Below are positions 58,714 to 63,643 of a stretch of 64,000 nucleotides of DNA, piece by piece. The notes below the pieces were generated by a model, which was given only the letters and a program-made list of their open reading frames with translations, did not search any database and was not told the DNA's origin. A program made the position numbers and the translations under genes. Source of the stretch: Rhizomicrobium palustre (GTDB lineage Bacteria > Pseudomonadota > Alphaproteobacteria > Micropepsales > Micropepsaceae); contig NZ_JAASRM010000001.1 of NCBI RefSeq assembly GCF_011761565.1, positions 3,224,139 through 3,288,138 of the forward strand. The letters run 5' to 3'. Numbering within the stretch: the stretch's first letter is position 1; the number at the start of each line of letters is the position of its first letter.

Positions 58714-59130
58714 TCAAAGTATGTGTGAAAGATTTTCGAGAGAGCCCGTCCAGCCGCGGCGATGCTGTTCGCAACGCTCTTCGCTGTGGAAGCCTTCATG
58801 GCGCAGGGTGAGCACCGTGCCGCTGCCTTCCGCGCGGAAAGTGAGGGTGACGAGGGTTTCGATCTCGTCGTCCTCCCAAACCCAGGTGAAAACCAATTTG
58901 TTCGGCCGGTCGATGGTGCGGTAGACACCATGGACGGGATAGGGCGCGCGGCCCTCCTGCAGCATGGCGATGCGAAAGCGCCCGCCTTCGCGCGGATCAA
59001 GTTCGGTGATCTCGCCGCGAATGCCATGCGGGCCGATCCAGTCGCCCCAATGGCGCGAGAGCCAAGCATCGAAGACGCGTTCCGGCGCGGCATCGAAGCT
59101 GCGCGTCATCTGTAAGAACGTGCCGTTCAT
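58714..59130 (-). CDS. SRPBCC/AHSA1-domain protein
   Basis: A 138-residue lipid-binding-fold (START-like) protein: FLQMTRSFDAAPERVFDAWL, HGIRGEITELDPREGGRFRI, RPNKLVFTWVWEDDE and a C-terminal helix with RRGWTGSLENLSHIL. The start at 59130 overlaps the ArsR stop (ATGA), so the pair is translationally coupled. ArsR-AHSA1 pairs are common; the ligand is unknown. Confidence 0.87.
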   Translation of the reverse strand: MNGTFLQMTRSFDAAPERVFDAWLSRHWGDWIGPHGIRGEITELDPREGGRFRIAMLQEGRAPYPVHGVYRTIDRPNKLVFTWVWEDDEIETLVTLTFRAEGSGTVLTLRHEGFHSEERCEQHRRGWTGSLENLSHIL

Positions 59131-59441
59131 CTTGTCTCCTTCAGGTGTTCGGCAAGGCGGTCGAGGCTGCCTGACCAGAAGCGGGCATAGAATTCCAGCC
59201 AATCGCTTGCGGCTTTCAGGGCGCCGGATTTGAGGTGGCAGCGCTGATGCTGGCCGACTTTGCGCCGTTCGATCAGCTCGGCTTGCTCCAGCACTTTGAG
59301 ATGGCGTGAAATCGCGGGCTGGGAAATCGCAAAAGGTTCGGCGAGTTCGCCCGCGGTGGCATCGCTTTCGGCCAGTCGCGCGAGGATGGCCCGGCGGGTC
59401 GGGTCGGCGAGGGCGGCGAAGGTGCGATCCAACTGTTTCAT
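59127..59441 (-). CDS. ArsR-family regulator
   Basis: A 104-residue winged-helix repressor: RTFAALADPTRRAILARLAE, recognition helix FAISQPAISRHLKVLEQAEL and IERRKVGQHQRCHL. It has no metal-binding CxC motif, so it belongs to the non-metal ArsR group that travels with AHSA1 proteins. The start at 59441 is chosen over longer frames that run across the operator. It probably represses itself and the two genes after it. Confidence 0.88.
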   Translation of the reverse strand: MKQLDRTFAALADPTRRAILARLAESDATAGELAEPFAISQPAISRHLKVLEQAELIERRKVGQHQRCHLKSGALKAASDWLEFYARFWSGSLDRLAEHLKETR

Positions 59442-59452
59442 AACGATGAGGT

Positions 59453-59474
59453 TATATAACTTTCTCGTTATATA
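59453..59474. promoter_or_regulatory. Candidate ArsR operator
   Basis: TATATAAC (59453-59460), six bases, then the perfect inverted copy GTTATATA (59467-59474). It lies immediately upstream of the arsR-like start, in an AT-rich pocket that should also hold its -10. Confidence 0.7.
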
Positions 59475-59515
59475 CAAACGGTTCGGCTTGCCAGGGTTTT
59501 GGACACGTTTTGTTC

Positions 59516-59544
59516 TTGACAGAACAGAGAGAGAACAATAACCT
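59516..59544 (+). promoter_or_regulatory. Sigma70-like promoter of the small membrane protein gene
   Basis: A perfect -35 TTGACA (59516-59521), 17 bases, then a -10-like TAACCT (59539-59544). The LexA-type box lies exactly in the spacer. The start codon of the small protein follows about 48 bases after the -10. Confidence 0.6.
59522..59536. promoter_or_regulatory. Candidate LexA (SOS) box
   Basis: GAAC (59522-59525), seven bases, GAAC (59533-59536). GAAC/GTTC-N7-GAAC/GTTC direct repeats are the LexA recognition pattern in alphaproteobacteria (established). It sits between the -35 and -10, where LexA would block the promoter. GTTCT...AGAAC also forms an inverted repeat at 59512-59525. Confidence 0.6.
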
Positions 59545-59591
59545 GTGCGCAAGGCTGTGGACAAGCGGTGCATATCCCTGTGGAGGGTCAA

Positions 59592-59696
59592 ATGAACTGG
59601 TTGAAGGATGCGGTGGCAGGCGTTGGTTTGATTGTCTTTTTTGCTTCGGGCCTGTTTTTGGCCGGAGCAGCTCAGTCTCTTCTCGCGGTGAGTTAA
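59592..59696 (+). CDS. 34-residue membrane protein, candidate SOS-induced division inhibitor
   Basis: A short open frame with a strong ribosome site (GGAGG five bases before the ATG). It encodes a short polar N-terminus (MNWLKDAVAG), a single hydrophobic helix (VGLIVFFASGLFLAGAA) and a short tail (QSLLAVS). Its promoter carries a LexA-type box. Small size, one helix and SOS control resemble the division inhibitor SidA of Caulobacter (29 residues), but I cannot claim sequence homology. No clear terminator follows before the next gene, so the transcript may run into the downstream genes. Confidence 0.55.
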   Translation: MNWLKDAVAGVGLIVFFASGLFLAGAAQSLLAVS

Positions 59697-59789
59697 GAGG
59701 GATCTGTGGATAGGCCGGATTGCCTTCGTTTACGGCCTTAACGGAGGCGCCGGAACAGAGTAGCGGTGTGGCCTGCCGGAGGTGGGTCT

Positions 59790-60230
59790 GTGGCCGTCAA
59801 TAATGCGACAGCGGAGATAGAGGCGCCGTCCCGTGCACAGTTGCACGCGGCGTTGGGCAGGAGTGCCTCGGTCTGGCCTGGGATCATCTCCGGATTGGAA
59901 GAGCGGTTCTCACCGCTCGAGCTTCAATGGCGCCCTTCCGGTCTCGCTTTTGGACGGATGTGTGCGCTGCGTCACAAGGGCTTGGCGCTGGCTTATCTTC
60001 TGCCTATGGCGGGACAGTTGCTGGTTGGCGTAGCGCTCGATGAGCGGGCTTATGAGCTGGCGCAGGCTTCCGCGTTGCGGGAGGCCATCAAGAAAATGCT
60101 CCGCGACACACCGCCAGCGCCGGATGGGCGTGGCATCCGCTTTGTGGTGAAGAATGAAGCCGATATCGGGCAGGTGGTGATCCTGGCCGAATGCATTATG
60201 GCGGATGCCAGAGTGGGAGGCCTCTCGTGA
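59790..60230 (+). CDS. DUF3788-like protein of unknown function
   Basis: A 146-residue cytoplasmic protein: SRAQLHAALGRSASVWPGII, PLELQWRPSGLAFGRMCALR, LALAYLLPMAGQLLVGVALD and GRGIRFVVKNEADIGQVVIL. It resembles DUF3788 proteins as I remember them, without confirmation. I choose the GTG at 59790 because GGAGG lies seven bases upstream; a GTG at 59766 is also in frame. Its stop overlaps the likely dnaE start, so it is coupled to dnaE. Confidence 0.65.
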   Translation: MAVNNATAEIEAPSRAQLHAALGRSASVWPGIISGLEERFSPLELQWRPSGLAFGRMCALRHKGLALAYLLPMAGQLLVGVALDERAYELAQASALREAIKKMLRDTPPAPDGRGIRFVVKNEADIGQVVILAECIMADARVGGLS

Positions 60231-63200
60231 GTGATCCGCGCAGCTTCGTTCATCTTCGGGTGAAGAGTGCCTATTCGTTGATCGAAGGCGCGATCCGGCC
60301 GAAGGAGCTCGCCAAGCTCTGTGTCGAATACGGCATGCCCGCGGTCGCGGTCACCGATGTCGGCAACCTCTTCGGTGTCTTTGATTGGACCGATGTGGTG
60401 ATGAAATCCGGCGTGCAGGCCATTGTGGGCTGTTTGCTGCCAGTGGAGCTGACCGGTGCTCAGGTGCTCGGCTCCAAGCCGAAGCCGCCTTATCTGCCGG
60501 TCTATGTGCAGAGCGATCTTGGCTATTTTCATCTCTGTAAGCTGCTTTCTAGCGCCTATCTCGATGTCGCGCCCGGCGACTGGCCCCATGTCACCGCGGA
60601 AAAGCTCGCGGCCTATTCGGAAGGGATCATTGCGCTGACGGGCGGTCCCGGCGGGCCGATCAACAAGCTCGTCGAAACCGGCCAGATGGAGGCGGCGGAA
60701 GCTATCCTCGATAAGCTGACGGCGATTTTCCCCGACCGGCTCTATGTCGAATTGCAGCGCCACGATCTGGCGGAAGAGCGCGCGGCGGAGCCGGGGCTGA
60801 TCGATTTTGCTTATGCCAAGCGCCTGCCGCTGGTCGCGACCAATGACGCGCATTTCGGCAAGGAAGAGATGTATGAGGCGCATGATGCGCTGCTCTGCAT
60901 CGCCGATGGCGCCTATGTCTCCCAGGAGGACCGGCGCAAGGTCACCGCCGAGCATCGCTTCAAATCCGCCGGCGAGATGATCGCCAAATTTGCCGATCTG
61001 CCCGAAGCCATCGCCAATACGCTGGAGATCGCCAAGCGCTGCGCCGCCAAGCCCAAAAAGCGCAATCCGCTTCTGCCTGTGTTCGAGCCCGTGTCGGGGC
61101 TTTCGGCGGAAGAAGAGTTGAAGGCGCAGTCCTGGGCGGGTCTTGAGCGGCGTCTGGCAAAGAACGGGCTTTATGCTGAACGCGAGGCCTATAACAAGCG
61201 CCTGGAATACGAGCTCGACATCATCATCAAGATGCAGTTTCCGGGCTACTTCCTGATCGTGTCCGACTTCATGAAATGGACCCGCGCGCAAGGCATTCCG
61301 GTGGGCGTTCGTGGATCGGGTGCCGCTTCGCTGGTCGCCTGGTCGCTCGATATTACCAACCTTGATCCCTTACGTTTCGGTCTCTTCTTCGAGCGCTTCC
61401 TGAACCCGGAACGTATCTCGATGCCTGACTTTGATATCGACTTCTGTCAGGAGCGGCGCGACGAGGTTATTCACTACGTCCGCGATAAATACGGCCATGA
61501 TAAAGTGGGCCATATCCTGGCGCTGGGCTCCTTGCAAGCGCGCGCCGCGATACGTGACGTTGGCCGCGTGCTGCAGATGCCGCTGGGTCTCGTCGACCGT
61601 ATCGCCAAGCTGATCCCGGCCCCGCCCGGCAAGCATATCAGCCTCGACGATGCCATGGGGATGGAGCCGCGCCTCGGCCAGATCGCCGAGCAGGAGCCGA
61701 TCGCACAGAAGCTCTTCAGCGTCGCCAAGAAGCTGGAAGGGCTTTACCGCAACGTCTCCACCCATCCGGCTGGCGTCATCATCGGCGACCGCCCGTTGGA
61801 TGAGCTGCTGCCGCTCTATTTCGATCCCCGTTCCGATGTGCCGGTGGCGCAGTTCGACTATAAGGGCGCGGAAAAATCGGGTCTGGTGAAGTTCGACTTC
61901 CTTGGCCTGAAGACCCTGACCGTGATCGCCAAAGCGCAAGACCTCTTGAAGGCGCGCGGCATCGAGCTTGATACCCAATCGATCGATTTCACCGACCGGC
62001 CCACCTTCGAGATGCTGTCCAAAGGCGATAGTGTCGGCGTGTTCCAGCTCGAATCCACGGGTATGCGCGATCTGATGCGCAAGATGAAGCCTGACCACAT
62101 CAACGACTTGGTCGCTCTTGTGGCGCTCTATCGCCCGGGTCCGATGGACTCGATCCCGAAATACATCGCGGTGAAGAATGGCCGCGAGGAGCCGGAATAT
62201 CTCCATCCCAAGCTCGAGCCGATCCTGAAAGAAACCTATGGCGTGATGACGTATCAGGAAGACGTCATGCACATCGCCCAGGAGCTTGCGGGCTACTCGA
62301 TGGGGCAGGCCGATAACTTACGCCGCGCCATGGGTAAGAAAATCGTCGCCGAGATGGTCAAGGAGCGCGAACGCTTCCTGAAAGGCTCCGGCGAGCGCGG
62401 GGTCGCGACCGATGTCGCCGAACAGATCTTTGATCAAGCCGCAAAGTTCGCAGGTTACGGCTTCAATAAAGGCCATGCCGCCGCGTATGCGCAGGTCGCC
62501 TATCAGACCGCGTATCTGAAGGCCAATTACCCGGTCGAATTCCTTGCCGCCTCGATGACGCTGGATATCGGGGCCACCGACCGTCTCGATGTCTTCCGCC
62601 AGGAGGCGCAGCGTCTTGGCATCAAAGTGCTGCCGCCGGACATCAACCGCTCCGCAGCGGTGTTTTCGTGCGATGCGGGCAAGAAGGAAATCTATTACGC
62701 GCTTGCCGCCGTGAAAGGCGTAGGCCGTCAGGCCATGGACCATCTGGTAGAGTTGCGCAAAAGCGGCGGGCCGTTCAAATCGCTGGCCGATTTCGCTGCC
62801 CGCATCGATCCCAAGCAGGTCAATAAGCGCGTCTTTGAAAATCTGGCGCGGGTGGGCGCCTTCGATTGCTTCAATTCCAACCGCCGCCAAGTCACCGAAG
62901 CCGCAGACGTTATCTTGGGGGCGGCGCAAGCCGCGGCCTCGGAGCGCGAAAGCGGCCAGTTCAGCCTGTTGGGCGGGCCTTCGCAATCGAAGTCCGATCT
63001 GCGTCTTCCCAATGTGCGCGATTGGCCGGCGCATGAGCGCTTGTCCGAAGAATTCTCCGCCATCGGCTTTTATCTGTCCGGCCATCCGCTCGATCAATAT
63101 CGCGTGGCGTTGAAGCGCTTGCAGGCGGTGACCTTTGCCGAGGTGCAGCAGGACCGGCGCAGCTCGTCCCAGCCTATCGTGGCGGGGACCGTGATCCGCA

Positions 63201-63643
63201 AGATGGAGCGGCGCGGCAAGAACGATCAGATGTATGCCTATGTCTCCTTCTCGGACGCGACGGGCATGTTCGAGGCGATGTTCTTCTCGGAGGTATTGAT
63301 GGCCTCGCGGCCCTTGCTGGAGCCGGGCAAGTCGGTGCTGGTGAAGCTTTCCGCGGTGTGGGAAGGCGAGGAGCTGAAGCTGCGCGCCGTCTGGGTGAAG
63401 GACCTTGATGTCGAAGCCGCCCAAGCGGGCGAGGGGCTGAGGCTGCACCTTAATGATGTCGCCGCCTTGCCGGGGATTGCTGCGCAACTCACCAAGCCGG
63501 GCAAAGGCGTGATCAGCATTGTGGTGCCGGGTGCGCCGGGCGAAGAGGTCGAAATCGCGCTGCCCAAAAAGCACCAGGTCACGGCGCAAATGAAAGACGC
63601 CTTGCGCGAGCTGCCAGGGGTGATGATGGTGGAGGCGGTATAG
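60227..63643 (+). CDS. dnaE: DNA polymerase III alpha subunit (replicative)
   Basis: A 1,138-residue replicative polymerase. The N-terminal PHP domain begins FVHLRVKSAYSLIEGA, where the metal-binding HxH is HxR...K, so its phosphoesterase site is degenerate. The palm has GVRGSGAASLVAW and the catalytic aspartates in MPDFDIDFCQERRDE. Fingers, helix-hairpin-helix and an OB domain (VAGTVIRKMERRGKNDQMYA) follow. Size and motifs fit DnaE1, not the error-prone DnaE2. The GTG at 60227 (GTGA overlap, GGGAGG upstream) is preferred to the in-frame codon at 60191. Confidence 0.95.
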   Translation: MSDPRSFVHLRVKSAYSLIEGAIRPKELAKLCVEYGMPAVAVTDVGNLFGVFDWTDVVMKSGVQAIVGCLLPVELTGAQVLGSKPKPPYLPVYVQSDLGYFHLCKLLSSAYLDVAPGDWPHVTAEKLAAYSEGIIALTGGPGGPINKLVETGQMEAAEAILDKLTAIFPDRLYVELQRHDLAEERAAEPGLIDFAYAKRLPLVATNDAHFGKEEMYEAHDALLCIADGAYVSQEDRRKVTAEHRFKSAGEMIAKFADLPEAIANTLEIAKRCAAKPKKRNPLLPVFEPVSGLSAEEELKAQSWAGLERRLAKNGLYAEREAYNKRLEYELDIIIKMQFPGYFLIVSDFMKWTRAQGIPVGVRGSGAASLVAWSLDITNLDPLRFGLFFERFLNPERISMPDFDIDFCQERRDEVIHYVRDKYGHDKVGHILALGSLQARAAIRDVGRVLQMPLGLVDRIAKLIPAPPGKHISLDDAMGMEPRLGQIAEQEPIAQKLFSVAKKLEGLYRNVSTHPAGVIIGDRPLDELLPLYFDPRSDVPVAQFDYKGAEKSGLVKFDFLGLKTLTVIAKAQDLLKARGIELDTQSIDFTDRPTFEMLSKGDSVGVFQLESTGMRDLMRKMKPDHINDLVALVALYRPGPMDSIPKYIAVKNGREEPEYLHPKLEPILKETYGVMTYQEDVMHIAQELAGYSMGQADNLRRAMGKKIVAEMVKERERFLKGSGERGVATDVAEQIFDQAAKFAGYGFNKGHAAAYAQVAYQTAYLKANYPVEFLAASMTLDIGATDRLDVFRQEAQRLGIKVLPPDINRSAAVFSCDAGKKEIYYALAAVKGVGRQAMDHLVELRKSGGPFKSLADFAARIDPKQVNKRVFENLARVGAFDCFNSNRRQVTEAADVILGAAQAAASERESGQFSLLGGPSQSKSDLRLPNVRDWPAHERLSEEFSAIGFYLSGHPLDQYRVALKRLQAVTFAEVQQDRRSSSQPIVAGTVIRKMERRGKNDQMYAYVSFSDATGMFEAMFFSEVLMASRPLLEPGKSVLVKLSAVWEGEELKLRAVWVKDLDVEAAQAGEGLRLHLNDVAALPGIAAQLTKPGKGVISIVVPGAPGEEVEIALPKKHQVTAQMKDALRELPGVMMVEAV

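Follow-up and report, generated by a model that had tools for sequence, protein, structure and literature searches.

A 34-residue single-helix peptide with a LexA operator upstream of dnaE1 in Rhizomicrobium palustre, probably a SidA-type division inhibitor

The small gene and its surroundings

The analysed stretch of DNA (the window) comprises 64,000 nucleotides of the Rhizomicrobium palustre genome, which is 4.26 Mb in size and consists of a single contig. It contains a 34-codon gene on the forward strand (59592..59696) with an ATG at 59592, a TAA stop at 59694-59696 and a ribosome binding site, GGAGG, read from the sequence at 59582..59586 (+). This frame and its GGAGG had been described in the original prediction and were confirmed to the base. 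The encoded peptide (MNWLKDAVAGVGLIVFFASGLFLAGAAQSLLAVS) has a single predicted transmembrane helix, and the AlphaFold model agrees with the clear membrane helix claimed earlier, as it predicts one helix over residues 2-33 with a mean pLDDT of 95.8.

Between the small gene and dnaE1 (60227..63643, +), which encodes the DNA polymerase III alpha subunit and is the conserved downstream neighbour, lies a gene of the DUF3788 family (59790..60230, +; E 4e-13; alternative upstream GTG at 59766). The predicted placement beside dnaE with a DUF3788 gene in between was therefore correct, and dnaE1 is found downstream of the small gene on the same strand in 27/27 named loci. An intervening DUF3788 gene, sometimes two, occurs only in the close relatives of the window. 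Two tandem DUF3788 genes separate the small gene from dnaE at loci L078 and L079, compared with one in the window. The divergent neighbour on the minus strand encodes an ArsR-family regulator (59127..59441) and is regarded as outside the system. It is followed by a gene for an AHSA1 (SRPBCC) protein (58714-59441 for both, -), a common pair that is kept in some relatives only, with a GST-like gene beyond.

A single-sequence search found the peptide in 48 of the 96 genomes of its own GTDB family (Micropepsaceae), and a profile built from 30 homologs extended this to 64/96. By genus, the profile matched 61 of the 69 Rhizomicrobium genomes and 3/7 genomes of a second (sister) genus, and gave no matches in the other five Micropepsaceae genera. 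Several of the approximately 8/69 Rhizomicrobium genomes in which the profile found nothing are incomplete. Named genomes with a match were Rhizomicrobium electricum and alphaproteobacterial MAGs. In 20 independent homolog pairs the small ORF showed a pN of 0.093 and a pS of 0.444, with 82, 44 and 237 differences at codon positions 1, 2 and 3, respectively, and such a pattern was absent from the remaining two reading frames. Peptide lengths among the 64 homologs are 30-36 amino acids. In a 30-row alignment W3, D6, A9 and G10 are invariant, and K5, A7, L13, F16, S19 and L23 nearly so. The 34-codon ORF is a real gene that is conserved as a protein under purifying selection. Scans of the peptide and two relatives against Pfam, NCBIfam and PHROGs gave no convincing match; the best PHROG match (E 0.0093) belonged to a 29-residue peptide. 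The small-protein family is thus not covered by any Pfam, NCBIfam or PHROG model.

Promoter and LexA operator

The small gene is preceded by a -35 element TTGACA (59516..59521, +), read directly and also the commonest hexamer among the homologs, and by a weak -10 element TAACCT (59539..59544, +) at the spacing of 17 bases that is commonest among them. The spacer (59522-59538) contains the LexA operator of the small gene at 59522..59536, which reads GAAC-AGAGAGA-GAAC, i.e. GAAC-N7-GAAC, or GTTC-N7-GTTC on the opposite strand. All of these elements, including the filling of the spacer by the box, had been predicted and every base was confirmed. A sigma-70 consensus scan called no promoter at TTGACA/TAACCT, because TAACCT is too weak.

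Within the 64-kb window GAAC-N7-GAAC occurs once, against 1.43 matches expected from shuffles. Since the box alone is no more than chance, the case for the small gene must rest on conservation. In every one of the 64 homologs the small gene is preceded by a perfect GAAC-N7-GAAC, so both the frame and the box, which the original prediction expected to persist in relatives, are kept. The genome encodes a single LexA, and the motif is found just upstream of lexA itself as well as upstream of recA, uvrA, uvrD, imuA and ssb (genes recognised from their translated sequences), which identifies it as the organism's own LexA box. The earlier assumption that LexA recognises this motif, rather than a different one, therefore stands. 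Genome-wide, GAAC-N7-GAAC has 75 matches versus 179 for the reversed pattern; most of the 75 are chance, so the SOS gene set counts by identity and not by number. In one homolog group the -10 element TAGAAC overlaps the downstream LexA box, and thus promoter and operator shift relative to each other yet always overlap. At locus L040 (G019) the box lies 212 nt from the peptide start, compared with 40-70 nt elsewhere. The intervening sequence, at about -110 to -10 relative to the peptide start, has the ends CTAGTGTCC...GGGACACTAG and resembles a small inverted-repeat element that has been inserted between the promoter and the gene.

A second, convergent LexA-like box may lie at 59501..59515, in the degenerate form GGAC-N7-GTTC. 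Immediately 5' of the TTG of the -35 element, GTTC is present in 60/64 homologs. The far half-site, 11 bases before that GTTC, always begins with G and in most homologs ends with TC; its variants are GATC (34), GGTC (10) and GTTC (9), the last giving a perfect GTTC-N7-GTTC in 9/60 homologs, and the GGAC of the window is a decayed form. Because the half-sites stand in the GTTC-N7-GTTC register, the -35 element of many homologs seems to be flanked by two LexA sites in convergent orientation. Convergent pairs of strict boxes occur in other families as well (G193, G140). Binding of LexA to the second candidate box is suggested by this register; alternatively, the conserved bases could belong to the -35 or an upstream promoter element.

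Distribution in Alphaproteobacteria and relation to SidA

The region upstream of dnaE1 was taken from 200 genomes of a class sample, 194 of them outside Micropepsaceae, and searched for a strict LexA box ahead of a frame of 25-65 residues that begins with ATG after a Shine-Dalgarno-like stretch and encodes a membrane helix. The combination of LexA box, single-helix ORF (29-47 residues) and dnaE1 was present in 29/194 non-Micropepsaceae genomes. The 11 further permutations of these four letters gave 0 genomes each, and other GC-matched motifs gave at most 2 genomes each among the same 194. The arrangement occurs in 12 GTDB families (f3, f8, f33, f46, f52, f58, f67, f99, f103, f105, f108 and f147), and many of the dnaE1-linked peptides have in common W/F-x-K/R-D/E at the start and A-L ahead of the helix. 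Among the new weak matches of a class-wide profile search, G355 was the sole true distant homolog; six others lay inside unrelated frames and were dismissed as chance.

Family f52, which we infer to be Caulobacteraceae, has peptides that match Caulobacter SidA in length. The peptide was matched in 126/199 sampled f52 genomes. In the 30 loci that were read, it was always exactly 29 residues long, dnaE began 34-76 nt after its stop codon, and a strict LexA box lay upstream in 22. Five f52 loci (L258 = G325, L263 = G146, L339, L357 and L361) carry two LexA boxes in the same direction, spaced by 18 or 25 bases, upstream of peptides of 29-31 residues. SidA of Caulobacter crescentus is an SOS-induced inner-membrane protein of 29 amino acids that acts on FtsW (PMC4211646). 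In this species dnaE is CC1926 (PMC1839093) and sidA is CCNA_02004 (PMC10769358). The offset between the CC and CCNA numbering is 77 at lexA (CC1902 = CCNA_01979) and 79 at recN (CC1983 = CCNA_02062), and by interpolation dnaE is CCNA_02003-02005, beside sidA. In the CC numbering we take sidA to be CC_1927. Most likely, therefore, the 29-residue family of f52 is SidA.

Like the window gene, SidA is a tiny single-helix membrane protein with a short polar N-terminus before the helix and a GTTC-N7-GTTC LexA box, and it adjoins dnaE, with the Caulobacter adjacency interpolated from locus tags. The two differ in length (29 versus 34 residues), and when the profiles of the window family and of the 29-residue f52 peptides are compared directly, the sequence similarity falls short of significance (E 0.085). 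Homology between them therefore rests on intermediates. Among 5652 frames, the Micropepsaceae profile placed LexA-box ORFs at ranks 1-4, 6, 8 and 9, and an f52 profile, with f52 itself left out, placed them at ranks 1 and 3-9. Shuffled peptides rarely reached the real Micropepsaceae-profile scores of f103, f67, f105 and one f8 peptide, or the real f52-profile scores of f3, f8, f58 and f147; in the same test several families gave no signal with either profile. Both profiles match the f8 peptide of G365. In profile-profile comparisons an intermediate set matched the window family with E 2.3e-7 and f52 with E 6.3e-9, and 0/40 block-shuffled controls reached either score in hhalign, even without f103. 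The members of the intermediate set were chosen among the LexA-box ORFs by visual inspection, and this choice favours a match somewhat; the ranking of 5652 frames is without that bias. Short hydrophobic peptides can become alike by convergence. Even so, homology of the window family with f52, chained via intermediates, is probable, and the likeness to SidA probably reflects common descent. The analogy with SidA drawn in the original prediction gains support from this, since SidA-sized peptides under putative LexA control adjoin dnaE throughout the class. The comparison is stronger than was first supposed, because it now includes the same dnaE-adjacent place class-wide and profiles that suggest homology through intermediates.

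Proposed function and alternatives

We propose that the ORF encodes, under LexA repression, a SidA-type single-helix inner-membrane protein of 34 residues that inhibits division by acting on the late divisome, with a probability of roughly three in four. Caulobacter SidA and the small protein are probably both members of a family of cell-division brakes that extends across Alphaproteobacteria. LexA bound to the operator inside the promoter spacer would block RNA polymerase. Upon DNA damage, RecA-stimulated self-cleavage of LexA would free the promoter, and the peptide would be made and inserted in the inner membrane. There, in the way proposed for SidA (PMC4211646), it may hold FtsW/FtsI/FtsN inactive and so stop septation until repair is complete. 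The helix could make contact through the pair K-D or R-E that is conserved at its N-terminal end. The regulatory half of this mechanism is well supported by the operator and promoter sequences. For the effector half we draw on the analogy with SidA, a division inhibitor; for the window gene, damage induction, membrane insertion, division arrest and a target in FtsW/FtsN are all predictions.

The same SOS control could serve a toxin instead of a checkpoint. TisB of E. coli, with approximately 29 residues, is SOS-induced and has a single hydrophobic helix, as the window peptide is predicted to have, and a product that needs tight repression would be well served by a second LexA-like site. A peptide of this kind would depolarise the membrane and promote dormancy without blocking the divisome. 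Yet sequence and position tie the window peptide to the SidA-like, dnaE-adjacent family, and its conserved W-x-K-D end and the pattern of its small residues would fit a protein with a specific binding partner. Moreover, TisB has an antisense RNA antitoxin, whereas a search of 59400-60300 found no Rfam RNA and so gave no hint of a known antisense antitoxin there. We consider a TisB-like toxin unlikely. Still less probable is that the LexA box serves dnaE1 (or DUF3788-dnaE1) and makes the replicase SOS-inducible, the small ORF being a translated leader that tunes dnaE. The shared strand and the short distance between the starts of peptide and dnaE, in many cases 150-230 nt, fit such an arrangement, but this distance varies, one or sometimes two DUF3788 genes lie in between in relatives of the window, and the peptide is conserved as a protein with an amino-acid pattern that persists across families. 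Transcript read-through from the small gene into dnaE may still occur as an added effect. The peptide might also be a conserved SOS membrane peptide with another role, such as the regulation of a transporter, a protease or an enzyme of the envelope, as many bacterial micro-membrane proteins bind such partners. The tie to the SidA-like family through position and profiles speaks against this reading, to which we assign the lowest probability.

Other known division inhibitors are less similar to the proposed SidA-type protein. DidA of C. crescentus is alike in kind, as a damage-induced single-helix division inhibitor that acts through FtsN, but it has 71 amino acids, is SOS-independent and is driven by DriD (PMC4211646). 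The LexA operator and a length of 34 amino acids, half that of DidA, set the window gene apart from DidA. SulA and the Gram-positive YneA, SosA, DivS and ChiZ, likened here by description, form SOS-controlled division checkpoints such as we propose for the window gene. In those descriptions YneA and SosA are small membrane proteins as well, but the Gram-positive inhibitors are larger than the window peptide and come from other phyla, and SulA is cytoplasmic and targets FtsZ, in contrast to a predicted membrane helix.

The usual view of SOS division inhibitors is that each lineage has invented its own and that their sequences are too short and too variable to be traced. In this case the dnaE1 position, the operator and a weak sequence pattern jointly recover a class-wide family that is absent from Pfam, NCBIfam and PHROGs. 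A limited text search, which is no proof of absence, found no description of SidA homologs in other Alphaproteobacteria. As far as the searched literature goes, the new part is the class-wide, dnaE-linked distribution, and the SidA-like kind of the small gene was already known. In this family, dozens of naturally occurring SidA variants can be used to map the action of a 30-residue helix that stops the divisome, and the family predicts an SOS checkpoint gene in organisms for which none is annotated. It also raises the question why a division brake stays beside the gene of the replicative polymerase. Tentatively, and with less than even confidence, we suggest an ancient SOS module across Alphaproteobacteria, in which a fast-evolving SidA-type micro-protein is locked upstream of dnaE1. 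In many lineages two convergent LexA operators around the -35 element would keep the brake tightly repressed, and read-through may raise the replicase after damage.

Further LexA-like boxes were seen in the same genome. One (GTTCCTGCTTTGTTC, L009) precedes a 2'-5' RNA ligase-like gene and another (GTTCTGTGTTAGTTC, L024) a manganese-catalase-like gene, both named by eye; these are possibly further SOS genes or chance matches. Two strong boxes, GTTCTTATTTTGTTC (L062) and GTTCCCATTTTGTTC (L017), have no obvious downstream gene, and the short frames near them resemble one another.
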